A DNA stretch of 64,000 nucleotides, from contig NZ_WUAX01000014.1 of the NCBI RefSeq assembly GCF_009806985.1, positions 124,001 to 188,000 of the forward strand. The letters are read 5' to 3'. The notes beneath the pieces are model-generated. The model was not told the DNA's origin. It saw only the letters and a list, made by a program, of their open reading frames with translations, and did not search any database. A program made the translations under genes and the position numbers. The stretch comes from Halorubrum sp. JWXQ-INN 858. GTDB taxonomy: Archaea > Halobacteriota > Halobacteria > Halobacteriales > Haloferacaceae. Shown piece after piece: positions 2,640 through 37,610 of this stretch (position 1 is the first letter of the stretch; the number at the start of each line of letters is the position of its first letter).

Positions 2640-2749
2640 GGCCCGATGCGATCGGGGCGTCGTCGACGCAGCCGTAAGGACCCGTCACGGCCTCTCCTCC
2701 GACCCGGTAGGAGGGGTATACCTTAGTGTCGACCGATGGTGTCGCCTCC

Positions 2750-3259
2750 ATGAGCACGAACGGCTCCGAGTTACCGCGAGCGATCCGGGAGACTGATGTC
2801 GGCGAGGGGACGACGATCGCCCCGTTCAGCGTGATCGACGACTGCGAGTTCGGCCGCGACTGTCAGGTGTGGCGGTTCGTCAACTGTTACGGCGCGACCG
2901 TCGGCGACGAGGTGATGATCGGGTCGTTCGTCGAGATCCAGTCGGACGTCGTCGTCGGCGACCGGACCCGGATCCAGTCGCACGCGTTCGTCCCGTCCCT
3001 CTCGGAGATCGGCGACGACGTCTTCGTCAGTCACGGCGCGAAGTTCGTCAACGACGTCTACCCGCCGAGCGGCGACCCCGACCGCTGGGAGCCCACGGTC
3101 GTACACGACGGGGCGGCGATCGGGACGAACGCGACGCTCCTCCCGGTCGAGATCGGTGAAAACGCCCTCGTCGGTGCCGGCGCGGTCGTTACCGACGACG
3201 TCCCGCCGGACGCCATCGTCGCGGGCAATCCGGCGGAGATCGTCGGCTACCGCGACTGA
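2750..3259 (+). CDS. Left-handed beta-helix N-acetyltransferase, WbpD/WlbB-like
   Basis: The 169-residue protein is built almost entirely of hexapeptide-repeat coils ([39 protein letters not shown]), the signature of trimeric acyl-CoA sugar acetyltransferases. [11 protein letters not shown] near residues 95-105 resembles the catalytic His and loop of the WbpD/WlbB family, which acetylates the 3-amino group of UDP-2-acetamido-3-amino-uronic acid. The convergent neighbours are the matching aminotransferase and dehydrogenase, so the three likely act in sequence. An upstream in-frame ATG at 2726 is possible, but 2750 fits the family length and lies 32 nt after an ATACCTTAGT element. Its 3' end overlaps the convergent gene by 13 nt. 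Confidence 0.9.
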
Positions 3260-4266
3260 ATCGCGTCGTCGACGACGGGCGGATCGAGGTCGACGGTGTT
3301 ACCGGTGGCGTCCGACCGCTGTGCGGACTCGAGCACTTCGACGGCCCGCGCGCCGACGGAACCGGGCGCGTGCAGCGTCGCCTCCCCGCGGGAGGCGGCG
3401 AGGAACTCCTCGACCTCGGCCCTGAGCGGCTCCCGCGACGGAGCCTCGTGGACCTGCTTCCCCTCCTCGAGCGATCGGAGCGTCCCCTCGCGCTCGACGA
3501 CCCGACTGTCGTACACCTCGAGCACGTTGTCCTGCAGGTAGTCGATGTACGCCGACTTCTCGGATCCCACGACCACGAGGTCACGACGCTTCCCGAACAC
3601 CGGGACCTGCCAGGACTCCCTGATGACGCTCGTCGCCCCGTCGTACTCCAACACGATCGTCGCGGTCTCGTCGACGTCCTCGCGGACGACGGCGTCCAGC
3701 GAGCAGTAGACGCGGTTCGGTTCCTCGCCCATGAGATACGAGGAGACGTCGACGTCGTGGACCGCGAGCGAGTACAGCGCGCCGGTCGTCGACCGGGGGA
3801 CGCGGAACGAGAACCGGCTCGTCGTCAGGTACTTTATCCGGCCGAGTTCGCCCCTGTCGATCCGCCGTTTCAGCTCGCGCAGCGCCGGATGGTGCCGGAA
3901 GATGTGGCCGACCGCGAGCGTCCCGTCGTGTTCGTCGGCGACCGAGACGATGTCCCACGCGGCGTCGCTCTCGAGCGCCAGCGGCTTCTCCACCAACACG
4001 TCGACCCCCGAGCGCAGGAGGTACGTCGCGATCTCGTGATGCGTCGGCGACGGCGTCGAGATGGTCGCGGCGTCGACGCCCAAGTCGGGGAGCTGCTCGT
4101 AGCTCGTCGTCCCCTGGGCTCCGTACCGGTCGGCGAGCTCGGTGAGCCGCGCCTCGTCGACGTCACACAGCGTGAGCTCGTCGATGACCCCGTCCTCGGC
4201 CAGCTCCGCGGCGACGCGGGCGTGGTTGCTCCCCCAGTAGCCGGTGCCGATCACGGCGTAGTTCAT
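3247..4266 (-). CDS. Gfo/Idh/MocA-family dehydrogenase (WbpB/WlbA-like)
   Basis: This 339-residue protein opens with the Rossmann motif [11 protein letters not shown] and has the family's catalytic EKP motif with Lys94. The family oxidises sugar hydroxyls with NAD; in the WlbA/WbpB branch it makes the 3-keto form of UDP-2-acetamido-uronic acid. Its ATG overlaps the stop of the upstream aminotransferase (ATGA), so the two are translationally coupled and likely work as the oxidation and transamination pair. The 3' end overlaps the convergent acetyltransferase gene by 13 nt. A second dehydrogenase of this family is at 10394. The exact substrate is inferred from context. Confidence 0.92.
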
Positions 4267-5360
4267 TCGAGATACCCCGCGATCGCCTCACACACCGTGT
4301 CCACCTCGTCGTCCTCGATCCGTGGGTGCATCGGCAGCGACACGATGCGGTCGACGAGCCGCTCGGTCACCGGCAGCGTGTCGGGGTCCGTGCGGTCCTC
4401 GACGGCCGGGTGTCGGTGTGCGGGCGTCTCGTAGTGGATCCCGGTTCCGATGCCCCGGTCGTCCAGGTGTTCCCGGAGGCCGTCGCGGTCGTCCGTTTGG
4501 ACCACGTAGAGGTGGTACACGTGGAACGCGTCGTCCGGCTCCGTCGGCGTTTCCACGCCGTCGACGTCGGCGAGACGCTCCGTGTAGCGCTGTGCCGCGG
4601 CGTTTCGCCGCTCGTTCCAGTCTCGGACCCGTTCGAGCTGGTCGATCCCGACGGCGGCGTTCGTCTCGTCCAGCCGGTAGTTCAGCCCGAGGTGCAGGTG
4701 GGTCCCGGCGTCGTCGCGACCGTGGTTACGGAGCTCGCGCATCTCGCGGGCGAGGTCCGGGTCGTCGGTCGTCACCATCCCGCCGTCGCCGGCGACGGTC
4801 ATGTTCTTCGAAGGGTAGAAGCTGAACGCTCCGGCGTCGCCGGCGGCCCCCGCCACGTCCTCGCCCCGATCCCCGAAGTGCGCCTGGCAGGCGTCCTCGA
4901 GGACGAACAGGTCGTGCTCGTCCGCGATCGACCGGATCGCCCCCATCTCCGCGAGGCAGCCGTAGATGTGGACCGGGATCACGGCCGCCGGGTTCTCCGC
5001 GTCCGCGGCGGCGTCCGCGAGGGAATCGGGGTCCATCGTGTACGTTTCGGAGTCGACGTCGACGAACACGGGGTTCGCGCCGAGCGACAGGACGGGGCTC
5101 ACCGTCGCGAAGAAGGTATGGCCCGGCACGAACACGTCGTCGCCCGGGCCGACGTCGGCCGCCTGTAACGCGAGTCGGAGCGCCGCGGTCCCGCTCGACA
5201 CGCCGACGGCGTGATCGACGCCACACTCCTCCGCGAAGGCCGACTCGAACCGTTCGACGACCGGCCCCTTCACGTATCGGCCGCCCCGGAGCACGTCCTC
5301 AACGGCTTCGATCGCGTCCTCGCTGACGCGGATGTCGGTAAAATCGACGGTATCTGGCAT
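4263..5360 (-). CDS. DegT/DnrJ/EryC1/StrS aminotransferase (WbpE/WlbC-like)
   Basis: This 365-residue PLP enzyme is the usual length for sugar aminotransferases. The PLP lysine is Lys185 in FYPSKNMTVAGDGG, and EDACQAHF supplies the aspartate that contacts the pyridine ring. It should transfer an amino group from glutamate to a nucleotide-linked keto-sugar, most likely the 3-keto product of the dehydrogenase encoded immediately downstream (ATGA overlap). A locus promoter element, ATTACAAACA, starts 33 nt before the ATG, so a leaderless transcript is expected. Paralogues are at 9321 and, more divergent, at 27317. Confidence 0.93.
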   Translation of the reverse strand: MPDTVDFTDIRVSEDAIEAVEDVLRGGRYVKGPVVERFESAFAEECGVDHAVGVSSGTAALRLALQAADVGPGDDVFVPGHTFFATVSPVLSLGANPVFVDVDSETYTMDPDSLADAAADAENPAAVIPVHIYGCLAEMGAIRSIADEHDLFVLEDACQAHFGDRGEDVAGAAGDAGAFSFYPSKNMTVAGDGGMVTTDDPDLAREMRELRNHGRDDAGTHLHLGLNYRLDETNAAVGIDQLERVRDWNERRNAAAQRYTERLADVDGVETPTEPDDAFHVYHLYVVQTDDRDGLREHLDDRGIGTGIHYETPAHRHPAVEDRTDPDTLPVTERLVDRIVSLPMHPRIEDDEVDTVCEAIAGYLE

Positions 5361-5709: not shown

Positions 5710-6468
5710 ATGCAGGCAGTCGTACTCGCCGCCGGCAAGGGAACGCGGCTCCGTCCGCTGACCGAGGAGAAACCGAAAGGCCTCGTCGAGGTGGACGGGA
5801 AGCCGATCCTCACGCACTGTTTCGAGCAGCTCGTCGACCTCGAGGCGTCCGAGCTGCTCGTCGTCATCGGCTACCGCGGGGAGGACGTCGTCGATCGGTA
5901 CGGCGAGGAGTTCCGCGGCGTGCCGATCACGTACGCCACCCAGGAGGAGCAGCTCGGGCTGGCCCACGCGCTCAACACGGTCGAGGAACACGTCGACGAC
6001 GACTTCATGTTGATGCTCGGGGACAACGTCTTCAGGGCGAACGTCGAGGACGTAGCCCAACGGCAGCGCGAGAGCCGCGTCGACGCGGCGTTCCTCGTCG
6101 AGGAGGTGCCGTGGGAGGAGGCGTCGCGATACGGCGTCTGCGCCACGAACGCGTACGGCGAGATCACCGAGGTGATCGAGAAGCCGGACGACCCGCCGTC
6201 GAACCTCGTGATGACGGGCTTTTACACGTTCTCGCCGGCGATCTTCCACGCGACGAACCTCGTCCAGCCCTCCGACCGCGGGGAGTACGAGCTCTCCGAC
6301 GCCATCGACCTCCTCATCCAATCGGGACGCACCATCGACGCGGTCGAACTCGACGGCTGGCGGATCGACGTCGGCTACCCCGAGGACCGCGAGGAGGCCG
6401 AACGACGCCTCCAGGAGGCGTCGCCGGCGTCGCCGAGTCCCAGCGTCGGGAACGTCTCCAGCGAGTGA
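5710..6468 (+). CDS. Sugar-1-phosphate nucleotidyltransferase
   Basis: The 252-residue protein starts with the nucleotidyltransferase signature LAAGKGTRLRPLT and KPKGLVEVDGKPI at residues 6-33, and has the metal-binding LGDNVF near residue 103. It lacks the C-terminal beta-helix of bifunctional GlmU-type enzymes, so it should only activate a sugar-1-phosphate (glucose or N-acetylglucosamine type) with UTP or dTTP. It resembles haloarchaeal AglF, but I cannot decide the sugar or nucleotide from sequence. The promoter element 34 nt upstream suggests a monocistronic leaderless transcript. It probably supplies activated sugar to this locus. Confidence 0.9.
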   Translation: MQAVVLAAGKGTRLRPLTEEKPKGLVEVDGKPILTHCFEQLVDLEASELLVVIGYRGEDVVDRYGEEFRGVPITYATQEEQLGLAHALNTVEEHVDDDFMLMLGDNVFRANVEDVAQRQRESRVDAAFLVEEVPWEEASRYGVCATNAYGEITEVIEKPDDPPSNLVMTGFYTFSPAIFHATNLVQPSDRGEYELSDAIDLLIQSGRTIDAVELDGWRIDVGYPEDREEAERRLQEASPASPSPSVGNVSSE

Positions 6469-9249: not shown

Positions 9250-9322
9250 ATGCATCCACTACACGTACCCAAACGGGCGGTTGTCGGCGGACGATCGCGA
9301 TCCGCCGGGAGGGCACGACCAT
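9250..9322 (+). other. Candidate 24-codon upstream mini-ORF
   Basis: ATG at 9250 opens a 24-codon frame whose TGA overlaps the ATG of the aminotransferase gene at 9321 (ATGA). It would lie inside the predicted 5' UTR. The peptide is basic and of low complexity, so it may be chance in GC-rich DNA. Confidence 0.3.
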
Positions 9323-10397
9323 GATCCCGATCGCGGACCCCCAGATCGGCGTGCCGGAGTTGAGCGCCCTTCTCGACGTCGCGGAGCGAGGACAGCTCGC
9401 TGACGGGCCGCCGGTCCGGACCTTCGAACGCGAGTTCGCGTCGGCGTGCGGCGCTGCTCACGGCGTCGCAACGTCGAACGGGACGACCGCGCTCCACGCG
9501 GCGCTGCGAGCGCTCGAGATCGGTCCGGGGGACACGGTCCTGACGACGCCGTTCTCGTTCGTCGCGACCGCGAACGCGATCCGTCTCTGCGGTGCCACCC
9601 CGACGTTCGCCGACATCGACCCGGCGACGATGAACCTCGACCCCGACGCCGTTCGGACGACGCTTCGGGACCGCGAGGTGGACGCGATCCTCGCCGTGCA
9701 CCTGTACGGCCGGCCGGCCCCGATGGACCGGTTGTGTCGGATCGCGGCGGAACACGACGTCCCCGTGATCGAGGACGCCGCACAGGCACACGGGGCACGG
9801 TTCCGCGGCGATTCGGTCGGGTCGCTGGGTGACGTCGCCTGCTTCTCGTTTTACCCGACGAAGAACATGACGACCGGCGAGGGCGGGATCGTGCTCACCG
9901 ACGACGAGCGAGTCGCCGAACGGGCCGAGCGCTTCGTCAACCACGGCCGAACCGACACGTACCTCCACGACACCGTCGGGCACAACTTCCGGCTCACGAG
10001 CCTCGGCGCGGCGATCGGGCTCGCACAGCTCGACAGGCTCCACGACTTCGTGGCGGTCCGCCGACGAAACGCCGCCCGCTACGACGACGCCTTGGCCGAC
10101 CAGCCGGCGATCGACGCGCCCGGCGACCCCGACCACCTGACCCACTCGTACCACCAGTACACCGTTCGTTGTGACCGCCGAGCGGCGCTCCGCGAGCACT
10201 TGGAGGCGGAAGGGATCGGGGCGGGGATCTACTACCCGCGACCGATCCACAAACAGCCGGCGTACGCCGACGTCGACGCGGACGCTCCCGCCGCCGAGAC
10301 GGCGGCCGAGGAGGTGCTCTCCGTGCCCGTTCACCCCGCGCTCGACCGCGCCGAGGTGGGGCGTGTCGCGGACGCCTTGGAGGGGTTCAGTCCATGA
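9321..10397 (+). CDS. DegT/DnrJ/EryC1/StrS aminotransferase
   Basis: The 358-residue PLP-dependent sugar aminotransferase has Lys181 in FYPTKNMTTGEGG as the PLP anchor and EDAAQAHGARF for the cofactor-stacking and Asp contacts. It should aminate a keto-sugar nucleotide. Its last codons overlap the start of the Gfo/Idh/MocA gene (ATGA), the reverse gene order of the pair at 3247-5360, so it forms a second oxidation-transamination module. It is a paralogue rather than a recent copy of the enzyme at 4263. A Shine-Dalgarno GGGAGGG supports the ATG chosen. Confidence 0.93.
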   Translation: MIPIADPQIGVPELSALLDVAERGQLADGPPVRTFEREFASACGAAHGVATSNGTTALHAALRALEIGPGDTVLTTPFSFVATANAIRLCGATPTFADIDPATMNLDPDAVRTTLRDREVDAILAVHLYGRPAPMDRLCRIAAEHDVPVIEDAAQAHGARFRGDSVGSLGDVACFSFYPTKNMTTGEGGIVLTDDERVAERAERFVNHGRTDTYLHDTVGHNFRLTSLGAAIGLAQLDRLHDFVAVRRRNAARYDDALADQPAIDAPGDPDHLTHSYHQYTVRCDRRAALREHLEAEGIGAGIYYPRPIHKQPAYADVDADAPAAETAAEEVLSVPVHPALDRAEVGRVADALEGFSP

Positions 10398-11344
10398 CGG
10401 TCCCGGTCGGCGTGATCGGTGTCGGGAGCATGGGGCGCCATCACGCGCGCGTGTATCGGGAGCTGCCCGACGCCCGTCTCGTCGGCGTCGCGGACGTGAA
10501 CGCGGAGGCCGCCGAATCGGTCGCGAACGACTACGACACGGTCGTGCTTCCGCGCGAGGAGCTCCTGGAGGCGGCGGAGGCGGTTTCCGTCGTGGTGCCG
10601 AGTCGGTTCCACGAGTCGGTGGGGGTCGCGGCCATCGAGGCGGGCGTCCATACGTTGATCGAGAAGCCGATCGCGACGACGCTCGATGAGGCGGCGGCCA
10701 TCGTTCGCGCAGCCGAAGAGGCGGGGGTCACCTTGCAGGTCGGTCACGTCGAACGGTTCAACCCGGCCGTGCGGACCGTCGCGGACTTCGTTGACGACCT
10801 CGATCTCGTCGCGGTCGAGGCGCGGCGGCTCGGTCCGCCGCTGGACGATACCCGAGCGGTCGGCGACGGCGTCGTCCTCGATCTCATGATCCACGACCTC
10901 GATATCGTTCGTGCGCTCGTCGACGCCGACGTGACGTCGGTCGGGGCCAGCGCGAGCCCCGAACGGGATTACGTCACCGCGTCGCTCTCGTTCGACAACG
11001 ACGTCGTCGGGGGGCTCACCGCCAGCCGAGCGACCCAGCGGAAGGTCAGAGAGCTCACTCTGACGGCGCGAGATTGCTTCGTGACCGTCGACTACTTGGA
11101 CAGCTCCGTGACCATCCATCGGCGGAACCGGCCGTCGTATCTCGTCGACGACGGCGACGTCCGCTATCGGAGCGAACGCGTCGTCGAGCGCCCGATCGTC
11201 GAGAACGGGGAACCACTTAAGAAGGAACTCGAGGCGTTCCTCGACGCGATCGCGGAGGGGACGGACCCGATCGTCGACGGGACGGACGGCTACGAGGCGC
11301 TCTCGCTGGCGACGCGGGTTAGCGACTCGATCCGGCCGAAATAG
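10394..11344 (+). CDS. Gfo/Idh/MocA-family dehydrogenase
   Basis: This 316-residue NAD-dependent oxidoreductase has the Rossmann motif GVIGVGSMGRHHARV at residues 6-20 and the catalytic EKP with Lys91. GHVERFNPAV around residue 117 is typical of the UDP-N-acetylglucosaminuronate 3-dehydrogenase branch. Its start overlaps the aminotransferase stop, so the two are made together and probably act consecutively on the same UDP-sugar. Which of the two dehydrogenases of this locus acts in the diacetamido-uronic acid route cannot be decided from sequence. Confidence 0.92.
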   Translation: MTVPVGVIGVGSMGRHHARVYRELPDARLVGVADVNAEAAESVANDYDTVVLPREELLEAAEAVSVVVPSRFHESVGVAAIEAGVHTLIEKPIATTLDEAAAIVRAAEEAGVTLQVGHVERFNPAVRTVADFVDDLDLVAVEARRLGPPLDDTRAVGDGVVLDLMIHDLDIVRALVDADVTSVGASASPERDYVTASLSFDNDVVGGLTASRATQRKVRELTLTARDCFVTVDYLDSSVTIHRRNRPSYLVDDGDVRYRSERVVERPIVENGEPLKKELEAFLDAIAEGTDPIVDGTDGYEALSLATRVSDSIRPK

Positions 11345-11529: not shown

Positions 11530-14500
11530 CTACCGGCGCCTCCTCGCGACGACGGCCATCGCGACGACGCAGACGAGCGCGACGAGCGCGGCGACCACGC
11601 CCAGCCCGTGTACCTCGTCGCTCCCGGTCTCCGTGGCCGGAGTCCCGGTATCCGTCTCCGCGTCCGCTCCCGCGTCGCTCGCGACGGTCACGTCGAGCGT
11701 GTAGTCGTTCGCCGCCACCTGGAACGTGCCGTCGGTGTCGAACCGCTGTTCGAACGCGAGGTCGACCTGCTCGCCGGGCTCCACGGTCACCGTTTCGGTG
11801 GCCACCACGTCACCCTCGACGGCGAACGCGATCTCTCGGTCGCCGGTGGCGGTCCCGTCGTTCGCGACGGTCGCCTCGATCACGGCGGTGTCGCCGGTGG
11901 CGAGGTCGCCGTTCGCGACGCCGAGGTCGACGACCTCGACGTTCGCGGACGGCTCCTCGACGTGCATCGTCCGTTCGCCGACTGCGTCCCCGATATCGGT
12001 CCCGTCGATACCGATCGTCAGGTCGCCACGCTCGGTCGGGACCACCTCGATCGACTCGGTGACCGTCTCCCCCGCGGGGGCGGTCACGTCGACCGATCCC
12101 TGTTCGTCGCCGTCGACGAGCACGGGGACCGTCGCGGTTCCCTCGTCCGCCCCGTGGTTCCGCACGGTCACGTCCACGGTGACGGGGTGGTCGACGGCCG
12201 CGGAGCCGACGTCGATCCCCACGACCGACAGCGCCGCCTCACGCGTACCGACGACGACCGGCGAGAGGTCGTCGGTCTCCGCGGTCACCCGGTGAGCGTC
12301 GTCGTCGTCGACGGTCGTCTCGATCGCTTCCCAGCCGTCGGCGGACGTGTCGAGCAGCTCCCAGTCGTCGCCGTAGCGGTACAGCGTGAACTCGCCGATG
12401 CCCATGCGCTCCGCGTACTCCCGGTCGACGTCGAATCCGTACGTAACCGACTCGACGTCGGTGTCGGTCCGCAGTTCGACCGCGGACCCGTTTGCGGGAA
12501 GCGCCCCGATCGGCGTGTCGATGTCCGGGTATCGGACCGTGGCGGTGAACTCGTCCGCGTCGTCGTCGACTTCGACGGCGACCGTCGACAGCCGAACGTC
12601 CTCGTCGGCGTCGATCTCCGCCTCGACGACGTCCCCGGAACCGACGCCGGTCGCCGTGATCCGCGCGATCCCGTCGTCGGCGGACTCGACCGTCGCGTCA
12701 ACCGTCGATGTCGTCGAGACCCCGCTCGATCCGCCGCTGGACCCGCCGCCGGAGCTACTGCTCGACCCGCCGGAGCCACCACTGGATCCCCCGGCGCTCC
12801 CGCTCGACCCTGAGCTCGACCCGCCGGACCCGCTGCTCGACTCCTGGTCGCTTTCGGATTCGTCGGTGTCGTCAGCGTCGTCGGCGTCATCGGGGCCTTC
12901 GGATCCCTCTTCGTCTGCATCGTCTGCATCATCAGCATCGTCAGCATCGTCGGCGTCATCGGCGTCATCAGTGTCATCAGACTCCTCGGAGCCCTCCGAG
13001 TCGTCGGAGTCGTCGGCATCACCGTTGTCGGTGTCGTCCGCGTCGTCGGACCCGTCCGTATCATCGGCGTTCTCGGACTCATCGGAGTCATCAGCGTCGT
13101 CGGAACCGTCCGCGTCATCAGCATCATCAGCATCGTCTGCGTCGTCTGCGTCATCAGCATCGCCTGCGTCATCGGAGTCGTCAGCGTCGTCGGACTCGTC
13201 TGTGTCTTCGGCGTCATCGGAGTCCTCGGACTCATCAGAATCACCCGAATCGTCTGCGTCATCGTCGCTTGCGTCCTCGGATTCATCTGCGTCGTCTGCG
13301 TCGTCAGCGTCGTCTGTATCGTCGGCATCATCAGCGTCGTCTGTATCGTCGGCATCGTCAGCGCCATCAGACTCATCGGCGTCGTCTGAGCTGTCGGAGT
13401 CGTCGGACTCATCGGCGTCGTCGGATCCATCCGTATCATCGGCGTCCTCGGATTCATCCGCATCGTCTGCGTCGTCAGTGTCGTCTGTATCGTCGGCATC
13501 GTCTGCGTCATCAGCGTCGTCGGCGTCATCGGATCCCTCCGAATCGTCGGAATCGTCGGCATCACCGCCGTCGTCGTCAGCATCGTCGGACCCACCCGTG
13601 TCATCGGCGTCCTCGGAATCATCGGAGTCATCGGAATCATCGGCGTCGTCTGCATCGTCGGCATCGTCAGCGTCGTCGGACTCGTCTGCGTCATCGGAAT
13701 CATCGGCGTCGTCTGCATCGTCAGCGTCGTCGGACTCGTCTGCGTCATCGGAGTCGTCTGCGTCATCGGAGTCGTCAGCGTCGTCGGACTCGTCTGTGTC
13801 TTCGGCGTCCTCGGAGTCCTCGGACTCATCAGCATCGTCAGCGTCGTCGGGCTCCTCGTCGTCTGAGCCGTCGGAGTCATCGGGCTCCTCGGCGTCGTCT
13901 GGCGCGCAGTCGCCGCGCCGGATCGTCAGCGGATCGCTCAGGTTGGGCAGCGAGACACGGTCGAAGCTCCCGTCCTCGTTGGCGTCGATCACCTGCCAGT
14001 CCGTCACGACGCCGTCCTCGCGCGGGTCGTCGCTCTCGAACCGGGCGTCGTCGTTGAACCGCGGATCGATCGTGATCTCGGCGTCGTCCGTGATCCCGCT
14101 GAACACCGCGCCGTCGGTCCGCCCGGTCGACCACACCCAGTGCATCTCGCTCTCCGATCCGTCGTGGATGAACTCGTCCGTCTGGCCGTCGTAGTCGTCG
14201 TCCTCGACGACCCACTCGCCGTCCTCGGGCAGCCCGCTCACGTCGAACGAGGCGAACCCGCCGGGCGTCCCGTCCATCCGAGCGTCCTCGTACAGCTCGT
14301 CGTGGACGATGACGAGGCTCGTCCCGTCGGGCCCTTCGTGCAGGATCAGGACGCTCGCGTCGTCCTGCTGGTACTCCACGGTCCCGTGTGAACTGTACGT
14401 GTACGCGTGCGGCTCGGTTTCGGGCGCACGGTAGTCGTAGAACTCCGCCCCGGTTCTGTCCTCGCTGACCACCGCCTCGATCACGTAGCACTCGCCGTCC

Positions 14501-14616
14501 TGCTCGACGACGTACTCGTCGTGGTCGTCGCCGACGACGCCACCGGACAGCAGCGCCGCGACGACGAGCGCCCCGAGGAACGCCCCGACCCCCACCTGGA
14601 TCCACCGACGGTTCAT
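11530..14616 (-). CDS. Large secreted or anchored surface protein with Asp/Ser/Ala repeat stalk
   Basis: From the ATG at 14616 the protein has 1028 residues. Residues 5-25 form a signal or anchor helix. Residues 27-235 are a globular acidic domain. Residues about 235-590 are a low-complexity stalk of DDAD, DDSD, DESD and EDAD units. Residues 590-640 are Gly/Ser-rich. Then comes a PGF-pre-PGF-like domain (about 645-790, with RYPDIDTPIGALPANGS), two CARDB-like adhesion domains (about 793-876 and 890-975) and a C-terminal hydrophobic helix ending in RRRR. The C-terminus resembles archaeosortase substrates but lacks PGF. GAGGTGGGG before the ATG is a strong Shine-Dalgarno site. It is probably the cell-surface protein decorated or held by the locus glycan. 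Confidence 0.88.
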   Translation of the reverse strand: MNRRWIQVGVGAFLGALVVAALLSGGVVGDDHDEYVVEQDGECYVIEAVVSEDRTGAEFYDYRAPETEPHAYTYSSHGTVEYQQDDASVLILHEGPDGTSLVIVHDELYEDARMDGTPGGFASFDVSGLPEDGEWVVEDDDYDGQTDEFIHDGSESEMHWVWSTGRTDGAVFSGITDDAEITIDPRFNDDARFESDDPREDGVVTDWQVIDANEDGSFDRVSLPNLSDPLTIRRGDCAPDDAEEPDDSDGSDDEEPDDADDADESEDSEDAEDTDESDDADDSDDADDSDDADESDDADDADDADDSDDADESDDADDADDADDADDSDDSDDSEDADDTGGSDDADDDGGDADDSDDSEGSDDADDADDADDADDTDDTDDADDADESEDADDTDGSDDADESDDSDSSDDADESDGADDADDTDDADDADDTDDADDADDADESEDASDDDADDSGDSDESEDSDDAEDTDESDDADDSDDAGDADDADDADDADDADDADGSDDADDSDESENADDTDGSDDADDTDNGDADDSDDSEGSEESDDTDDADDADDADDADDADDADEEGSEGPDDADDADDTDESESDQESSSGSGGSSSGSSGSAGGSSGGSGGSSSSSGGGSSGGSSGVSTTSTVDATVESADDGIARITATGVGSGDVVEAEIDADEDVRLSTVAVEVDDDADEFTATVRYPDIDTPIGALPANGSAVELRTDTDVESVTYGFDVDREYAERMGIGEFTLYRYGDDWELLDTSADGWEAIETTVDDDDAHRVTAETDDLSPVVVGTREAALSVVGIDVGSAAVDHPVTVDVTVRNHGADEGTATVPVLVDGDEQGSVDVTAPAGETVTESIEVVPTERGDLTIGIDGTDIGDAVGERTMHVEEPSANVEVVDLGVANGDLATGDTAVIEATVANDGTATGDREIAFAVEGDVVATETVTVEPGEQVDLAFEQRFDTDGTFQVAANDYTLDVTVASDAGADAETDTGTPATETGSDEVHGLGVVAALVALVCVVAMAVVARRRR
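12845..13910 (-). repeat. Coding minisatellite for the Asp/Ser/Ala stalk
   Basis: More than 1 kb of short, shuffled trinucleotide-based repeats (GAC, GAT, TCC/TCT/TCA, GCC/GCA and GAG codons) encodes the stalk of the surface protein. All frames on both strands are nearly stop-free here, which produces several large spurious ORFs. The array is likely to vary in length between strains. Confidence 0.85.
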
Positions 14617-15061: not shown

Positions 15062-16072
15062 TCAGCCCGAGACGACGTCCCGAACCCGTGAGTAGACGCT
15101 CGTCAACGCCCCCATCGCCGGCCCGCTCCGTTCGAGCCCGTAGTACGTCTCCACCTCGGGCGCGAACTTGGACTTGTACTTACACAGGCGACGGTTGTTG
15201 GCCCCGACGAGGTCGTACTGGGAGAGCCCTCGATCGATCCCTTCCGTGATGACGTGCCAGTCGACGAGGTCCTGTGCGGGGACCGGCGCGTCGAAGTCCG
15301 CGACGCTCTGCCAGCGGTAGACCGTGTCCTCGTCGAACAGGACGACGCCGCCGCCCGCGAACTCCCCGTTCGCGGTACAGACGTACGACTCCATCCGGTC
15401 CGGGATCGCTCGCGAGAGGTCGCGGACGAACCCCGGCGTGACGTCGTACGGGACGCCCTGTTCCTCGTGTCGACGCTTCGCCCTTCGCACGACTCGCTCC
15501 ATCCCCGGACGGCCCTCCGATCGTATCTCGAACGCCTCCTCGTCCGTGTTGCGGACGTTCGACCGGAGATCGCTGCTCGCGGCGGCGAGGATCGTGTCCG
15601 GATCCCGGTCGAGGTCGACGTGGTACGTGTACCGCGGCGTGGCCGTGAACCCGTTCCAGAGGAACGGACGCGGGTCGCCGTACCCCGGAGCCGTGCGGAC
15701 GTTGACGTAGCGTGCGCCGATCTCCTCGTCGACGTGCGACACCGCCTCGCCAACGAACCGACGGTGTCTCCGCTCCCGCGTGCGGCGTTTCATGTTCGGA
15801 TCGGAGAGCAGCACGGGCCCCAGGTAGGTGATCTTCCGGTTCGGCGGCGGCGAGAAGGCGAGCGTCACGGGCCCCTTCGTCATCGAGAACACCGGGAGCA
15901 GTCCGACCGGCTCCTGCCCTTTATACCCGACCAACGGGTGGAGCTCCGTCCCGGTGTGGTCGGCGAACACCGACAACGCGCCGTGCCGGTGGAACGGTGT
16001 CGCGTCGGTCGCTCGGTCGACGAGTCCGTCCCACGACGACGGGTCGGTCTCGACGGCGATATCGATGCTCAT
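15062..16072 (-). CDS. FemAB-like (GNAT-fold) aminoacyl/acyl transferase
   Basis: The 336-residue protein has the double-GNAT architecture of FemAB/MprF-type transferases: a first domain with YKGQEPVGLLPVFSMTKGPV near residues 46-65, then AKRRHEEQGVPYDVTP near 210 and the second-domain core FAGGGVVLFDEDTVYRWQSV. The closing LVGANNRRLCKYKSKFAPEVETYYGLE motif is shared with the paralogue at 24219. FemAB proteins add amino acids or acyl groups to cell-wall precursors; archaea lack murein, so a glycan or lipid-linked sugar is the likelier acceptor. The ATG overlaps the stop of the phosphodiesterase gene (ATGA), indicating joint translation. Confidence 0.88.
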   Translation of the reverse strand: MSIDIAVETDPSSWDGLVDRATDATPFHRHGALSVFADHTGTELHPLVGYKGQEPVGLLPVFSMTKGPVTLAFSPPPNRKITYLGPVLLSDPNMKRRTRERRHRRFVGEAVSHVDEEIGARYVNVRTAPGYGDPRPFLWNGFTATPRYTYHVDLDRDPDTILAAASSDLRSNVRNTDEEAFEIRSEGRPGMERVVRRAKRRHEEQGVPYDVTPGFVRDLSRAIPDRMESYVCTANGEFAGGGVVLFDEDTVYRWQSVADFDAPVPAQDLVDWHVITEGIDRGLSQYDLVGANNRRLCKYKSKFAPEVETYYGLERSGPAMGALTSVYSRVRDVVSG

Positions 16073-17709
16073 TCGAGGTACCCCAGGTCCGCCAGCCGGT
16101 CCTCTATCGCGGCGTCGTCCGTCGACGTCGTCGCCCCTTGATACTCCGGATACGCGTCCGGTGGTCCGGCGTCGAAGGGAGCGAGTACCTCCCCGTCCAT
16201 CCGGTCCGACGGGGGGAGGCCGAACGAGGCGAGGACCGTCGGCGCGACGTCGAGCAAGTGCGCGTCGTCGAACTCGCCCGCGTCGATCCCGTCGCCGGCG
16301 ATCGCGAGCGTCCCGTGGAGCTTGTGGTTCCACGGCTCCCGCGGCGATCCGAACGTCTCCTCCCGCACCGACGCCGTGAGGTACTGGTCGAACGTCGTCG
16401 GCACGACCACGATGTCCGGCGCTTCGTCGACGTACGGTCCCTCGAAGACCTCCTCGCGTCGAACGACGTTCTCGAACGCGGGCGTCCCATCGGGGGTTCG
16501 AAGCGACGTCAAGAGGTCGATCAGCTCCGACCGGACGGCCTCGTACTCGTCCGGATCGACGATCCCGTCCGGCTCGCGACCGGCGAGGTTGATACGCACC
16601 CCCAATTCGATCCGATCGCGCATGTACGCGGTCGACCCCGCGAAGTCGACGTGTTCGCTCGCCGCCTTCACCATCCCGCTCGGCACGACCTTGAGGACGA
16701 CGCCGTCCAGGCGGAGCCGCCGAAGCGCCGTCCCGATCCGCTGGCTCGTGAGCCCCACGGCCGCCATCGACGAGAGGACCCGTTCCGCCGCCGACGGACC
16801 GCCACCCCCGCTAGCGTCGGCGTCACCGTCCGAGGGGTCCGCTCGGATCTCCCGTTTCGAGAGCTCCGACCACGAGGGGAGCTCCGTCTCGGTCGACGTC
16901 TCGACGTAGCCGCGGTCCCGCAGGAGGCTGTTCGGCCGGACCTCGTACCCGTCGTACGGACCGATCCCGTGGTCGCTGACGAGCACGACCGTCTCGGGGT
17001 CGACCGCCTCGATCGTCTCCTCGATCTCGGCGTCGATGGCGGCGTACACCCGCTCGGTCGCGTCCGCGTCCTCCGGGAACTCGTGAAAGACGGTGTCGGA
17101 CTGTTGGAACTGAATGAACCCGAAGTCGGGGTCCTCACGCTCGATCAGGAAGCGGAACGCGTCGCCACGCTGGGCGGTCACGGTCTCGTAGCCGTTCACG
17201 CGCTCGTCCCGCGTGGCCCCCTCGCTCAGCTGTCGGTTGTACAGGCGGTACTCGCCGATCTCCTCTCGAACCGTATCGAGAAGTCCCTCCGGGTGACAGT
17301 CGGGATCGGACGGGGCCGTGTATCCGGGTATCAACGCCCCGTCGAACGTCGCTGGCGGGTGTGTCACCGGCACGTTCACCACGACGCTGCGGAGCCCCTG
17401 CTCGGAGAGCAGCTCCCAGAGGGCGTGTTCCCTGACGTCGGTGGCGTTGACGACGTCCCAGTCGTACCCCGTGAACCGGAGGAACCCGTACACGCCGTGC
17501 TTTCCGGGGTTCACGCCGGTGTATATCGACGGCCACGCGCTCGGTGTCCACGGCGGGAGCTGTGACTCCAGCGGCCCGCTCGTTCCCTCCGCGATCAGCG
17601 ACCGCATGGTCGGCGCGGTCCCGGGCGGGAGCCGCGAGAGTACCCCCTCACACAGCGCGTCGACGCCGAACACGAGGGTCCGACCGTCGGGACGGTTGGA
17701 TTCGGTCAT
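16069..17709 (-). CDS. Alkaline-phosphatase-superfamily phosphodiesterase/phosphotransferase
   Basis: This 546-residue protein has the type I phosphodiesterase/NPP signature. Asp17 lies in VFGVDALCEGVL. Thr55 in WTPSAWPSIYTG, followed by NPGKHGVYGF, is the expected nucleophile. SDHGIGPYDG near residue 243 and a late histidine complete the two-metal site. It lacks an obvious signal peptide. Such enzymes cleave or transfer phospho-groups; here it may trim or add a phosphodiester on the surface glycan, but the substrate is unknown. The gene is co-transcribed with the downstream FemAB-like gene and is preceded by the locus promoter element 34 nt from the ATG. Confidence 0.88.
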   Translation of the reverse strand: MTESNRPDGRTLVFGVDALCEGVLSRLPPGTAPTMRSLIAEGTSGPLESQLPPWTPSAWPSIYTGVNPGKHGVYGFLRFTGYDWDVVNATDVREHALWELLSEQGLRSVVVNVPVTHPPATFDGALIPGYTAPSDPDCHPEGLLDTVREEIGEYRLYNRQLSEGATRDERVNGYETVTAQRGDAFRFLIEREDPDFGFIQFQQSDTVFHEFPEDADATERVYAAIDAEIEETIEAVDPETVVLVSDHGIGPYDGYEVRPNSLLRDRGYVETSTETELPSWSELSKREIRADPSDGDADASGGGGPSAAERVLSSMAAVGLTSQRIGTALRRLRLDGVVLKVVPSGMVKAASEHVDFAGSTAYMRDRIELGVRINLAGREPDGIVDPDEYEAVRSELIDLLTSLRTPDGTPAFENVVRREEVFEGPYVDEAPDIVVVPTTFDQYLTASVREETFGSPREPWNHKLHGTLAIAGDGIDAGEFDDAHLLDVAPTVLASFGLPPSDRMDGEVLAPFDAGPPDAYPEYQGATTSTDDAAIEDRLADLGYLE

Positions 17710-20024: not shown

Positions 20025-20119
20025 ACGGTCGTAACCGTCGACGTAGCCGACCGTACCCGGCTGTAACTGCGGGCTGACCGCGCCCGACGGCCTCCCGAGC
20101 CGTGCCGCCGACTCGGCTG

Positions 20120-20207
20120 TCCACGTCGCTTCGGCGTCCTGTCCACGTCGCTTCGGCGTCCTGTCCACGTCGCTTCGGCGTCCTGTCCACGTCGCTTCCG
20201 CGTCACC
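20120..20207 (+). repeat. Four tandem copies of a 22-bp repeat
   Basis: TCCACGTCGCTTCGGCGTCC recurs with an exact 22-bp period at 20120, 20142, 20164 and 20186; the last copy has one change. It lies in the 493-bp divergent gap between two glycan transcription units (19947-20439). There are no spacers between units, so it is not a CRISPR array. Confidence 0.9.
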
Positions 20208-20362: not shown

Positions 20363-20442
20363 ATGTTACCGACGACCTCCGCGACCGCAGATCACGCTCC
20401 GGCGAACCGGACCGAACCGACGCGCCCGACGAGGCGTCCATG
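20363..20442 (+). other. Candidate 26-codon upstream mini-ORF
   Basis: ATG at 20363 opens a Thr/Pro/Arg-rich frame of 26 codons. Its TGA overlaps the ATG of the acetyltransferase gene at 20440 (ATGA). It lies within the predicted 5' UTR and parallels the mini-ORF at 9250. Low complexity makes chance possible. Confidence 0.3.
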
Positions 20443-21033
20443 AGCGAGACGACGACGCTCGACCGATCCGTCCGGATCGGGGAGAACTCCCGGATCGACG
20501 ACGACGTGACGTTCGAACCCGGGGACGAAGGCATACGGATCGGGTCCGACGCGCGGATCCGCTCCGGCTCGATCCTGTATTCCGACGTCGTCGTCGGCGA
20601 CGGCCTGACCACCGGTCACGACGCGGTCCTCCGCGAGGGGACCCGGATCGGCGACGAGACGCTCGTCGGGACGAAAAGCGTCATCGACGGACACACCACG
20701 ATCGGGAACCGCGTCAGCCTCCAGACCGGCGTCTACGTCCCGAGCGAGACGACGATCGGCGACGGGGCGTTCCTCGGCCCGAACGTCGTGTTGACGAACG
20801 ACCCCTACCCGGTCAGGACCGCCGTCGAGCTGGAGGGGCCGACGATCGAGGCCGACGCCTCGATCGGCGCGAACGCCACGGTGCTCCCGGGCGTCACCGT
20901 CGGCGAGGGGGCGTTCGTCGCCGCCGGCGCGGTCGTCACCGAGGACGTCCCCGCGCGGACGCTCGCGCTCGGCGCGCCCGCCAGACACCGACCGCTTCCC
21001 GACAGGCTCACCGGGGGGAACGACCTGCCATGA
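20440..21033 (+). CDS. Left-handed beta-helix acyltransferase
   Basis: The 197-residue protein consists of hexapeptide repeats (IGENSRIDDDVTF, IGSDARIRSGSIL, IGNRVSLQTGVYV, IGANATVLPGVTV) with the loop FLGPNVVLTNDPYPVRT typical of sugar N-acetyltransferases. It probably acetylates an amino-sugar nucleotide made by the aminotransferases of this locus. It is a paralogue of the enzyme at 2750 but longer. Its stop overlaps the ATG of the UDP-sugar dehydrogenase gene (ATGA), so both steps are co-expressed. Confidence 0.9.
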   Translation: MSETTTLDRSVRIGENSRIDDDVTFEPGDEGIRIGSDARIRSGSILYSDVVVGDGLTTGHDAVLREGTRIGDETLVGTKSVIDGHTTIGNRVSLQTGVYVPSETTIGDGAFLGPNVVLTNDPYPVRTAVELEGPTIEADASIGANATVLPGVTVGEGAFVAAGAVVTEDVPARTLALGAPARHRPLPDRLTGGNDLP

Positions 21034-22409
21034 CCGGACCCTACGGTGCCGAAACGGACCGCGAGTCGCTTCGGGCCGCGATCCGGAACGGCGAGGTCCC
21101 CGTGGCCGTCTACGGGCTCGGGAAGATGGGGCTCCCGCTGGCGGCCGTGTTCGCGGACGTGACCGGCAACGTGATCGGCGCGGACATCGACGAGTCCGTC
21201 GTCGAGTCGATCGGCCGCGGGGAGTGTCACGTCGGCGGCGAGCCCGGCCTCCCGGAGCTCGTCGCCCAGACGGTCGCGGACGGGTCGCTGGAGACGGTCG
21301 CCGACCCGACGGTCGCCGCCGACCGGGCCGCCGTCCACGTCGTCATCGTCCCGACCCTTCTGACGGCCGGCCGGCGGCCGGACCTGAGCGCGGTCGAGGC
21401 CGTGATCGACGACGTGGCGACCGGGCTCGACCCGGGCGACCTGGTCTGTATCGAGTCGACGGTGCCGCCCCGGACGTGCGTCGACGAGGTCGTTCCGCGG
21501 CTCGCCGAGCGAAGCGCGGTCGACGAGGGCTCCTTCGGCGTCGCGTTCTGTCCGGAGCGGACCGCGAGCGGGCGCGCGCTCAGGGACATCCGTGAGGCGT
21601 ACCCGAAGGTCGTGGGCGGGGTGGACGCCGACAGCACCCGGGCCGCCGCCGCGCTGTACGACGAGGTGACGCGAAACGAGGTGATCGAGGTGTCGGACGC
21701 GACGACCGCGGAGGCGATGAAGGTGTTCAGCGGCGTCTACCGCGACGTCAACATCGCCCTGGCGAACGAGTTCGCGCGATACGCCGACGACCTCGGGATC
21801 GACGTTCGCGAGGCGATCGACGCCGCCAACAGCCAACCGCTCGCGAACGTCCTCTCGCCCGGCCCGGGGGTGGGCGGCCACTGTATCCCGGTGTACCCGC
21901 ACTTCCTGATCGACCACTTCGAGACCTCCAGCCCGCTGATACGGATCGCGCGCGCGGTCAACGACGGGATGCCGTCGTTCACCGTCGAACGGGTCCGCGA
22001 CGCGCTGTACGACGCCGGCGTTCCGGTCGAAGAAGCGACGGTACTCGTTCTCGGGGCGACGTACCGGCCGGGGGTCAAGGAGCTGCGGAACAGCCCGTCC
22101 GACCGGATCGCCGAGCTGTTCTCGCGGTACGGGGCGTCGGTGTACTGGTCCGATCCGCTGATCGACGACCCCGACGCGATCCCGGGCGAGCGCCTGCCGC
22201 TCGCCGACGTCGCCGACGCGGATCCGGACGCCATCGTCGTCGCCACGCCACACGAGCCGTTCGTCGAGCTGGACTGGTCGGCGATCCCGCCGACGATCGT
22301 CGTCGACTGTCACGACGCGTTGGACCTCGCGGACACCCATCACGTCGAGTACACGATCGGGAGCCCGATCGGTGGCCCAGCCGGAAGGAGACGGATCGAT
22401 GCCGCGTGA
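21030..22409 (+). CDS. Nucleotide-sugar dehydrogenase, UDP-ManNAc/UDP-GlcNAc 6-dehydrogenase family
   Basis: The frame is open to 20211, but the ATG at 21030 starts the fold and overlaps the previous stop. The 459-residue enzyme has a Rossmann motif VYGLGKMGLPLA at residues 21-32, a FCPERTASGRAL motif near 175, and catalytic Cys285 in GPGVGGHCIPVYP. The GHCIPVYPHF form is characteristic of the WecC/WbpA group, which oxidises the C6 of UDP-HexNAc in two steps. It would provide the uronic-acid backbone on which the 3-dehydrogenase, aminotransferase and acetyltransferase act. It overlaps slightly with the GTG alternative of the next gene. Confidence 0.93.
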   Translation: MTGPYGAETDRESLRAAIRNGEVPVAVYGLGKMGLPLAAVFADVTGNVIGADIDESVVESIGRGECHVGGEPGLPELVAQTVADGSLETVADPTVAADRAAVHVVIVPTLLTAGRRPDLSAVEAVIDDVATGLDPGDLVCIESTVPPRTCVDEVVPRLAERSAVDEGSFGVAFCPERTASGRALRDIREAYPKVVGGVDADSTRAAAALYDEVTRNEVIEVSDATTAEAMKVFSGVYRDVNIALANEFARYADDLGIDVREAIDAANSQPLANVLSPGPGVGGHCIPVYPHFLIDHFETSSPLIRIARAVNDGMPSFTVERVRDALYDAGVPVEEATVLVLGATYRPGVKELRNSPSDRIAELFSRYGASVYWSDPLIDDPDAIPGERLPLADVADADPDAIVVATPHEPFVELDWSAIPPTIVVDCHDALDLADTHHVEYTIGSPIGGPAGRRRIDAA

Positions 22410-23169: not shown

Positions 23170-23210
23170 CCCGCCCTCTCACCGACGCCGAGCGGGGTGA
23201 TCCCCGATGA
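23166..23210 (+). other. 14-codon linker mini-ORF overlapping both neighbouring genes
   Basis: ATG at 23166 overlaps the TGA of the upstream deacetylase (AGATGA). The frame encodes MTRPLTDAERGDPR, and its own TGA overlaps the ATG of the downstream deacetylase at 23207 (CGATGA). The double overlap would let one ribosome pass from gene to gene by termination-reinitiation. Whether the peptide has any function is unknown. Confidence 0.5.
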
Positions 23211-24178
23211 GCGACCCGTTCGGGCCGGAGGTCGCGGACGCGGAGACCCGCCGTCGCGAGCAGATCCCGGGCGACGGCTCGTTCGCGCTCTGTCTCACGC
23301 ACGACGTCGATCGGCCGTACAAGACGTATCAGTCCCTGTACTACGCCGTGACGGAGCGGGACCCGTCACACCTCAAGTCGCTCGCCCCCGGCCACAACCC
23401 GTACTGGTCGTTCGACCGGATCATGCGGCTGGAGGCGGATCTCGGGGTCCGGTCGGCGTTCTACTTCCTCGACGAACAGCACCTGTTCACGGACCGCCCG
23501 CGCCGCGAGATCGCGAGCCCGAGGGCGTGGTCGCTGTACACGGGGCGGTACGACGTCACCGACCCGCGTATCATCCGGGTGATCCGCGAGTTGGACGCCG
23601 GCGGGTGGGAGGTCGGCCTGCACGGCTCGTACCGGTCGTACCGGAGCCGTGACCGGCTCCGCGAGGAGAAGCGGACGCTCGAGTCGGTGCTCGGGCACGA
23701 CGTCGCCGGGGTTCGGCAGCACCACCTCAACCTCTCGGTCCCGGAGACGTGGCGACACCACGCCGCGTTGGGGCTCTCGTACGACGCGAGCCCGGGCTCG
23801 TCCAGCCGCGTCGGGTTCGATCACGGCTACGGCGTTCGCCGCCCGTTCGACGACGCGTTCGCCGTCTTCCCGCTGACGGCGATGGAGCTCGCGCTCCCGA
23901 TCGAGTCCGACCCGGACCGGGCGTGGGAGGTCTGCGATCGGCTGCTCAGGGAGGCCCGCGAGGAGGCGGCGGTGATGACCGTGCTCTGGCACCCGCGGTT
24001 CTTCTGTGCCGACACCCCCAACCACGAACCGATCTATCGACGGCTGATCGAGCGGGCCCAAGCGCTCGGTGCGTGGGTCGGCCCGCCGGGCGAGCTGTAC
24101 GCCTCGCTCGATCACCCCGGCTCGCCGAACGAGGTCGCCGCCGACGGCGGGACGACACCCGGCGACCCCGGACGGTAA
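23207..24178 (+). CDS. Polysaccharide deacetylase family protein
   Basis: The 323-residue protein has the CE4 motif CLTHDVDRPYKTYQ at residues 28-41 with two aspartates, EVGLHGSYRSYRS (HxxxY/H metal region) near 140 and TVLWHPRFFC with the late catalytic histidine near 260. It resembles the polysaccharide-deacetylase branch that accompanies exosortase-type EPS loci in bacteria. It is the third deacetylase of this locus and is coupled to the previous one through the mini-ORF. The acceptor polymer is unknown. Confidence 0.88.
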   Translation: MSDPFGPEVADAETRRREQIPGDGSFALCLTHDVDRPYKTYQSLYYAVTERDPSHLKSLAPGHNPYWSFDRIMRLEADLGVRSAFYFLDEQHLFTDRPRREIASPRAWSLYTGRYDVTDPRIIRVIRELDAGGWEVGLHGSYRSYRSRDRLREEKRTLESVLGHDVAGVRQHHLNLSVPETWRHHAALGLSYDASPGSSSRVGFDHGYGVRRPFDDAFAVFPLTAMELALPIESDPDRAWEVCDRLLREAREEAAVMTVLWHPRFFCADTPNHEPIYRRLIERAQALGAWVGPPGELYASLDHPGSPNEVAADGGTTPGDPGR

Positions 24179-24218: not shown

Positions 24219-25223
24219 ATGAGATTGGAACGGCTGTCGCTCGCGGAGTGGGAGAACGCCCTTCCGGAGACGGGGATCGAGGTGTTTCACGATCCGGACG
24301 CGCTGTCCGTCCTCGACGACCACGCGTCGGGGGACCTCGTCCTCCTCGGTGGGTTCAAAGGTGACCGCGCGACCGCGTTGCTCCCGCTTTTCGTCCGTGA
24401 CATGGCGCTCGGCCGGGTAGTCACGTCCCCGCCGCCCGGCTTCGGCGTTCCGGGGCTCGGTCCGGTGTTGATGCCCGCGAGCCCGAAACGACGCAAACAG
24501 GAACAGGTCAACCGAACGTTCACCGAGAAGGTCGTCGACGAGCTCGACCTGGACGGGGCGCGTACCCTGTTCAAGATGACGTGCCAGCCCGGGTTCACCG
24601 ACCCGCGCCCGTTCGTCTGGGACGGGTTCGACCTCGGGACCCGGTTCACCTATCGGATCGACCTGTCGACGACCACCCCGGACGAACAGCTGTCGGCCGC
24701 GAGCAAGAGCCTCCGCCGAGAGATCGGCGACGCCGAGGAGCTCGACGTCGACGTGACCCGCGGGGGGCTTCCGGCCGCGAAGCTCGTCTTCGAGGAGGCG
24801 CGGGCCCGATACGAACAACAGGGCGAGTCGTTCCCGATGACGTGGGCGTACGTCAGGGACCTCTTCACTGCGCTCGGCGACGACGCCCGAACGTACGCCG
24901 TCCGCTCGCCGGAGGGGGAGTTCCTCACCGGGGTGACCGCGCTGTACTCGCCGGACGCCGCGTACTTCTGGCAGGGGGGCGCGCGCACCGTCCACGAGGG
25001 GGTCGCGGTCAACAGCAACCTTCACTGGGAGATCCTCCGGGACGTCGTCACGGACCCGCCGACGGAAACCGTCACGGCCTACGACCTGTACGGTGCCAAC
25101 ACCGAGCGGCTCTGTCGCTACAAGAGCAAGTTCGGCGCGGAACTCGTCCCCTATCACGTGATCGATACGGGCGGGCTCCGAATGCGCCTCGCCGAACGGG
25201 CCTACAACGCGATGAGGGGATGA
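24219..25223 (+). CDS. FemAB-like (GNAT-fold) aminoacyl/acyl transferase
   Basis: The 334-residue protein is a paralogue of the FemAB-like protein at 15062, with matching blocks: VLLGGFKGDRATALLPLF near residue 40, VTSPPPGFGVPGLGP near 70, ARYEQQGESFPMTWAYVRDL near 192 and LYGANTERLCRYKSKFGAELVPYHV near the end. The closing YGANxxxLCxYKSKF block appears to define this archaeal subgroup. The start at 24219 is supported by the promoter element. The downstream glycosyltransferase begins 4 nt after its stop, so they share a transcript. A role in adding an amino acid or acyl group to a lipid-linked sugar is inferred. Confidence 0.88.
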   Translation: MRLERLSLAEWENALPETGIEVFHDPDALSVLDDHASGDLVLLGGFKGDRATALLPLFVRDMALGRVVTSPPPGFGVPGLGPVLMPASPKRRKQEQVNRTFTEKVVDELDLDGARTLFKMTCQPGFTDPRPFVWDGFDLGTRFTYRIDLSTTTPDEQLSAASKSLRREIGDAEELDVDVTRGGLPAAKLVFEEARARYEQQGESFPMTWAYVRDLFTALGDDARTYAVRSPEGEFLTGVTALYSPDAAYFWQGGARTVHEGVAVNSNLHWEILRDVVTDPPTETVTAYDLYGANTERLCRYKSKFGAELVPYHVIDTGGLRMRLAERAYNAMRG

Positions 25224-37503: not shown

Positions 37504-37530
37504 CAGCCCCTACCGGGCGGCCACGCCCGC

Positions 37531-37610
37531 CGAACGATTCAATGGAGCGGCCGCCGAACGATTCAATGGGTTGGCTGCCGAACGATTCAATGGACTGGCC
37601 GCCGAACGGG
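37531..37610 (+). repeat. Tandem array of a 24-bp repeat, 3.3 copies
   Basis: CGAACGATTCAATGG units occur at 37531, 37555, 37579 and 37603 with an exact 24-bp period, in the gap between the DUF7344-type gene and the phosphoribosyltransferase gene. Confidence 0.85.

Follow-up and report, generated by a model that had tools for sequence, protein, structure and literature searches.

A probable haloarchaeal surface protein with a conserved head domain and an acidic DDx stalk, accessory to a surface-glycan locus

Related surface proteins and glycan loci

Several described systems resemble a gene in a stretch of 64,000 nucleotides from Halorubrum sp. JWXQ-INN 858 (contig NZ_WUAX01000014.1, positions 124,001 to 188,000; referred to as the window). 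The gene encodes a modular protein of 1028 amino acids (aa), which is probably exported and membrane-anchored, judging from its sequence, and which belongs to a surface-glycan locus. The staphylococcal Sdr/Clf adhesins (MSCRAMM) share with it a predicted export signal, a β-sandwich head, a long acidic, Ser-containing and presumably unstructured stalk, and a C-terminal helix with a basic tail. In contrast to these adhesins, the 1028-aa protein carries Asp-Asp-x triplets (DDx, Asp/Ala) instead of Ser-Asp (SD) dipeptides, has no LPXTG motif, contains a head of another family and possesses archaeal CARDB- and PGF-pre-PGF-like modules. The original prediction had likened it to the Sdr/Clf adhesins, but the SD-dipeptide array and LPXTG motif that define this group are both missing.

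Haloarchaeal PGF-CTERM surface proteins (PKD/CARDB proteins, which are ArtA substrates) likewise combine CARDB and PGF-pre-PGF-like modules with a tripartite tail, and homologues of the head occur in many of them (L071, L072, L077, L082). The 1028-aa protein differs from them by HGL in place of PGF, which leaves it below the family cut-off, and by a DDx chain in place of the PKD array. For Haloferax volcanii ArtA, the signature consists of PGF, a hydrophobic domain and positive charges, and a lipid was proposed as the acceptor (PMC7157517, PMC5744192). Haloarchaeal S-layer glycoproteins also share export, a membrane anchor and a spacer beside the anchor, which in their case consists of threonine clusters (PMC5744192). 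However, the 1028-aa protein is not an S-layer protein, lacks such a cluster and shows an accessory distribution.

With respect to the neighboring genes, the closest parallels come from bacteria. The WbpA/B/E/D, VimE and VimA proteins of Porphyromonas gingivalis and Tannerella forsythia produce a diamino uronic sugar that bears an amino acid and to which the C-termini of cargo proteins become linked; the authors also pointed out that VimA is hit by the FemAB model TIGR03019 and occurs near exosortase loci (PMC7468200). The haloarchaeal locus also contains WbpA/B/E/D-, VimE- and FemAB (VimA)-like genes near a sortase-type surface protein, but it is archaeal, its proteins score far under the equivalog cut-offs, and none of the type IX secretion context was seen. 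PEP-CTERM/exosortase exopolysaccharide loci have a FemAB-like protein, polysaccharide deacetylases and glycan genes adjoining a sorted surface protein in common with it. Here, in contrast, ArtA is encoded elsewhere in the genome (contig 6), and the match to the FemAB model TIGR03019 reaches merely 28 bits.

Architecture of the protein and the head family

The coding sequence (CDS) starts with the ATG at 14616 (Table 1). An alternative in-frame ATG upstream at 15012 would give a longer open reading frame (ORF), but we chose the former because a signal-like helix comes right after it. Hydropathy peaks solely at residues 4-31 and 999-1027. The stalked surface protein proposed for this position is real, with its ORF, a stalk of 355 aa and two terminal hydrophobic segments, and the proposed membrane anchoring is supported as probable, together with export, which would proceed via the N-terminal signal. 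The predicted layout held for the signal helix, the globular head, the Gly/Ser linker, the two CARDB-like domains and the helix with RRRR, whereas the PGF-pre-PGF-like domain was recovered at the profile level only. Direct scans of the whole protein against Pfam (E 10) and NCBIfam yielded nothing usable.

The head defines a family that occurs in 33 of the 116 relative genomes and comprises 54 named loci from more than 20 genera. Furthermore, 28 haloarchaeal plasmid records carry it, and no copy was found in the phages and viral contigs searched. From its sequence, it is a putatively exported haloarchaeal domain that matches no family in the curated libraries searched, Pfam (E 10) and NCBIfam. 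The closest homologues stem from Halobellus (60% and 52% identity) and Halorubrum sp. Atlit-26R (L082; 50%). An AlphaFold2 model of the head is all-β and confident (predicted local distance difference test, pLDDT, 93.9), in which C14 and C208 (domain numbering) probably form a Cys-Cys pair. A search of PDB sequences returned a lone cellulase match (E 0.54), which was rejected. The head, the C-terminal modules and a Gly-rich linker are common to the full-length homologues and the 1028-aa protein, and the C-terminal part matches that of L082 with 34% identity over 332 aa (E 4e-39) and that of L072 with E 4e-28. This haloarchaeal head domain is tied to a specific set of glycan genes, as described below.

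Some members of the family are built differently. Head homologues from Halorussus and LT46 (L081, L090, L094, L099, L102) carry Tat-like signals and stretches rich in D/E; their tails are rich in Gly/Lys or Gly/Arg, and a C-terminal membrane helix is missing. Two divergent heads from the same genus (L030, L031) are fused to an apparent lamin-tail-type domain (EYVEFRNDGDEELDLSEHTVRDETGWEF), and the homologue L105 carries an EPTEEPTE repeat N-terminal to the head as well as Asp/Ser/Lys-rich linkers. The same head protein is encoded on plasmids of 100,265 and 100,260 bp from Halostella pelagica and Salinibaculum litoreum (L120, L121), both of which also harbor WbpA/B/E/D-like, FemAB-like and VimE-like genes. 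This agreement between plasmids of almost equal size from different genera reflects either a transfer in the recent past or records that were mixed up.

Within the head family, a PKD array has been replaced by a DDx chain. The middle of the long full-length homologues consists of five to six PKD domains. In the 1028-aa protein, in which a Pfam scan found no PKD domain, the stalk occupies this place, and among the homologues seen it alone has a DDx chain there. The exchange of a folded stalk for an entirely acidic and probably disordered chain within one family is, in effect, an experiment of nature that bears on the requirements of a surface stalk. The chain is composed of 52.1% Asp, 16.3% Ala, 12.1% Ser (n=43) and 9.6% Glu, contains 12 Thr and is completely devoid of Lys and Arg. 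It had been described as a Ser/Asp repeat, but it is actually made of DDx triplets, mostly DDA (47 DDA), and the only SD-type run is one DSDS. Residue identity at a lag of three positions is 0.53, compared to 0.324 ± 0.019 (maximum 0.395) in 2000 same-residue shuffles, and the period-3 pattern is not due to chance.

At the DNA level, Tandem Repeats Finder (TRF) detects arrays of 9 and 54 bp in the stalk-coding region. The Asp codon GAT accounts for 65 of 185 Asp codons in the stalk but for only 4 of 88 in the rest of the gene (p = 5e-9). Between repeat units, the same residue is encoded by the same codon at a frequency of 0.51, which is about the expectation from codon usage. Because synonymous sites are randomized between units while the protein pattern is kept, the array is not a fresh product of slippage. 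With 99 stalk residues as query and a threshold of E 1e-10, a search of 115 other genomes gave no comparable stalk, and we found no second strain of the same species that carries the gene. A long plus-strand ORF with Ser/Ala repeats (12386-14194) mirrors the repeat that encodes the DDx chain and was dismissed as an artefact.

The C-terminal region was modelled as three β domains and a terminal transmembrane (TM) helix (pLDDT 86.1). Foldseek hits of this model in the PDB were multi-domain immunoglobulin-like (Ig-like) proteins with low template modelling scores and were rejected as merely generic. A profile of the CARDB-like region (A5) matched the PDB entries 2l0d (6.9e-6), 3idu and 2kl6, which we take to be CARDB-type structures. 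Relatives match the Pfam CARDB family (PF07705); the 1028-aa protein itself matched neither PF07705 nor any other Pfam family at E 10. For the first β domain, a profile match was obtained to a TIGR04213 (PGF-pre-PGF) protein of the same genome (probability 92.8, E 3.9e-7), and direct searches with TIGR04213, including a search of the genome, did not match the 1028-aa protein.

The C-terminus reads EVHGLG-TM-RRRR, that is, a TM helix followed by a basic cluster and preceded by HGL where PGF is expected. This HGLG tail aligns with the PGFG, SGFG and DGFG tails of the relatives, and its score with TIGR04126 (PGF-CTERM) is 11.6 bits and does not reach the cut-off of 24.5, in good agreement with the original prediction of a PGF-CTERM-like helix and basic tail without the PGF motif. 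By these alignments, the tail is a putative degenerate PGF-CTERM, and its HGLG may be processed by ArtA, the sole exo- or archaeosortase found in the genome (TIGR04125, 336.9 bits, C6:148225 on contig 6).

Linkage to a surface-glycan gene set

The predicted location in a surface-glycan locus was supported. Across many genera, homologues of the head gene adjoin these glycan genes and are thus not absent from the glycan loci of relatives. The two linked partners, a phosphodiesterase and a FemAB-like protein, are encoded upstream of the surface-protein gene on the same strand. At 22 of the 54 loci, homologues of the two partners are found no more than 10 kb from the head gene, and at 17 of these 22 the phosphodiesterase is at least 50% identical. 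These 17 include loci from Halobellus, Natrinema, Halovivax, Salinarchaeum, Halalkalicoccus and Natronocalculus as well as Halobonum, Halobacterium, Halococcus, Haloarcula and Halomicroarcula. Against an expectation of ∼1% per locus, which we estimated by assuming 1-4 copies in a genome of 3.5 Mb, this linkage has a binomial probability of 6e-30 if relatedness is ignored. The phosphodiesterase also co-occurs with the head, being present in 24 of the 25 genomes with a good head match compared to 9 of the 91 others (Fisher p 2e-16). The gene order phosphodiesterase-FemAB-head is identical in Halobellus and Salinarchaeum, and in Halobellus about 16 further genes of the window are found within the same 20 kb.

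In a congener (L135; G045:C32), the locus is preserved nearly gene for gene, with ∼60-80% identity for most shared genes, but the surface-protein gene is missing. No trace of a surface-protein remnant was found in the corresponding gap of ∼1.06 kb between the WbpB-like and FemAB-like genes. This congener keeps the glycan genes without the surface protein, and therefore these genes do not need it. The surface protein is an accessory of the glycan locus. The gap itself (L135, 6988-8051) contains a small ORF and what looks like the remains of a truncated TnpB of the IS200/IS605 type (GHGDLKGEECDAAFNADVNGAENIR).

The enzymes of the locus were compared to family models. Among the Wbp-type enzymes, TIGR03026 was passed (349.6, cut-off 189.8), NF040723 was missed (248.8, cut-off 450), and the Pfam DegT and Hexapep thresholds were reached. 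The VimE model NF053580 gave 51 of the required 440 bits, and TIGR03019 gave 28 of 260, so that both equivalog cut-offs were missed by far. Because of these low scores, the likeness to the Wbp/Vim pathway is a working resemblance and not membership. All 14 homologues of the CE4 deacetylase match NF053580 and nothing else in NCBIfam, 10 of 21 FemAB-like homologues match TIGR03019, which is the PEP-CTERM FemAB model, and a profile of the FemAB-like family finds FemX and lipid II glycyltransferase among the PDB entries. A second set of genes for a hexapeptide transferase, a 3-dehydrogenase-like protein and a DegT aminotransferase is located in the same locus at 2726-5360.

Table 1. Positions in the window of the surface-protein gene, the regions it encodes and the neighboring glycan genes
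Feature	Position	Strand	Evidence or remark
Surface-protein CDS, modular, 1028 aa (P0001)	11530..14616	-	N- and C-terminal modules shared by homologues
Putative N-terminal signal helix, residues 1-29 (MNRRWIQVGVGAFLGALVVAALLSGGVVG)	14530..14616	-	hydropathy; signal-like or Tat-like N-terminus in most relatives
Conserved head domain, residues 30-237, Ig-like β sandwich	13906..14529	-	alignment A4 (n=49); AlphaFold2; 54 named loci
Acidic DDx stalk, residues 238-592, period 3, net charge -219	12841..13905	-	composition, repeat analysis; place of PKD in relatives
Gly/Ser hinge, residues 593-636	12709..12840	-	sequence; relatives with Gly-rich linkers at the same place
PGF-pre-PGF-like β domain, residues ~637-792	12241..12708	-	profile match, probability 92.8; structure model
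Two CARDB-like β sandwiches, residues ~793-876 and ~877-980	11677..12240	-	profile A5 vs PDB; Pfam CARDB in relatives; model
Putative degenerate PGF-CTERM tail, HGLG + TM helix + RRRR, residues 1003-1028	11533..11610	-	TIGR04126 score; aligned tails of relatives
FemAB-like (VimA-like) transferase, linked partner	15062..16072	-	library and profile matches
Type I phosphodiesterase (AlkP-like), linked partner	16069..17709	-	overlaps FemAB-like gene by 4 bp
AglF orthologue	5710-6468		433 bits vs cut-off 400
WbpE-like aminotransferase	9321-10397	+	
WbpB-like dehydrogenase	10394-11344	+	
WbpD-like hexapeptide acetyltransferase	20440-21033	+	
WbpA-like nucleotide-sugar dehydrogenase	21030-22409	+	
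VimE-like CE4 deacetylase	23207-24178	+	
Second FemAB-like protein	24219-25223	+	
GT4-like glycosyltransferase	25227-26168		without stalk-specific assignment

Possible roles of head, stalk and tail

Overall, we consider it fairly probable that the 1028-aa protein is a modular, membrane-anchored haloarchaeal surface protein that presents a conserved Ig-like head on a spacer and serves as an accessory of the glycan locus. The N-terminal signal would export the protein, and the C-terminal helix would hold it at the membrane. From the membrane outward, the TM anchor would be followed by the two CARDB-like domains, the PGF-pre-PGF-like domain, the Gly/Ser hinge, the DDx chain of 355 residues and finally the head, which the flexible acidic chain would set at a distance from the membrane. 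There, the head would bind or organize the glycan product of the linked locus as a structural or adhesive accessory. Since the head family is tied to one type of glycan locus, and most closely to the phosphodiesterase and FemAB-like pair, the head most likely binds or organizes the product of this locus. Homologues fill the place of the stalk with folded PKD domains, and therefore the stalk is most likely a spacer, presumably a hydrated, salt-tolerant and disordered tether. By polymer scaling, a disordered chain of this length would measure roughly 15-20 nm from end to end, about the span of five PKD domains. The pores of the Haloferax volcanii S-layer are only ∼13 Å wide (PMC8640222), and therefore an unfolded chain could be threaded through a layer of this kind, which a folded head could not pass.

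Several points speak against this explanation. The statistics on linkage and co-occurrence take no account of phylogenetic relatedness. At about half of the head loci, including that of Halorubrum sp. Atlit-26R (L082), neither partner is seen in the fetched flanks. The fold matches of the head are weak and generically Ig-like, with a best Z of 6.0 and a best Foldseek E of 3e-3 (none below 0.001). Finally, the stalk is a singleton, hence its role as a spacer is based on one protein.

The alternative that retains most weight, which we nevertheless regard as unlikely, is that the stalk works by its chemistry, as a binder of divalent cations or by hydrating the surface, and not as a spacer. A chain that is 62% acidic with a net charge of -219 and no basic residues would suit such a role, and Ca or Mg ions hold the haloarchaeal S-layer (PMC8640222). 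However, relatives carry PKD domains at the same place, so the chemistry is not conserved.

More doubtful is the Sdr-like adhesin of the original prediction, taken here as one in which the stalk Ser and Thr residues would be densely O-glycosylated by the enzymes of the locus and the protein would be the main glycoprotein client. A head, an acidic stalk that contains Ser and an anchor are indeed found in both, the gene is located in a glycan locus, and the 43 Ser and 12 Thr of the stalk offer potential sites. The adhesins Cna, ACE, Als and SdrC even appear among the weak fold matches of the head, but at Z 4.4-6.0, which is noise level according to the tool. Ser makes up just 12% of the stalk, and the sole nearby glycosyltransferase, which is GT4-like, has no stalk-specific assignment. 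The protein has two N-glycosylation sequons overall, neither of them within the stalk, whereas the long relatives have a median density of 2.1 per 100 aa. This scarcity and the empty site in the syntenic locus of L135 speak against the protein being the main client.

We assign an equally low probability to anchoring via a C-terminal glycan, in which the locus would make an aminoacylated 2,3-diamino uronic sugar of the Wbp/Vim type and ArtA would join the cleaved C-terminus to it. The gene content of the locus (WbpA/B/E/D-like genes, a VimE-like deacetylase and FemAB-like proteins) and a tail homologous to PGF-CTERM in a genome that encodes ArtA are consistent with this idea. The Wbp/Vim pathway of Porphyromonas gingivalis supplies a sortase with its linking sugar, and the FemAB family matched here is also matched by VimA (PMC7468200). 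But the VimE- and VimA-type cut-offs are missed by far, the tail has no PGF, published work on ArtA proposes a lipid acceptor (PMC7157517), and L135 possesses the pathway without the surface-protein gene. By analogy to PorU in Bacteroidota, head proteins in general might be transferred by an archaeosortase from a degenerate PGF-CTERM onto the product of a haloarchaeal linking-sugar pathway; this we also hold to be improbable. If true, it would mean that glycan-anchored sorting exists in archaea too, and the locus points to the question of the archaeosortase acceptor in strains with Wbp/Vim-like genes. Least credible of all is a neutral repeat expansion or an assembly artefact without a function of its own, as the TRF arrays and the lack of the stalk in other genomes might suggest, given the randomized synonymous sites, the preserved protein pattern and a frame that stays open over 355 codons.

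Two minor observations concern repeats and phosphodiesterases outside the surface-protein gene. Short tandem arrays are present in the window at 20117-20204 (22 bp x4), 37527-37608 (24 bp x3.4) and 41193-41289 (15 bp x5.5). At another locus (L137; G061:C1), several phosphodiesterase/AlkP-like and sulfatase-like genes are clustered, and many of their products share an LGYLE/LGYID-type C-terminus.

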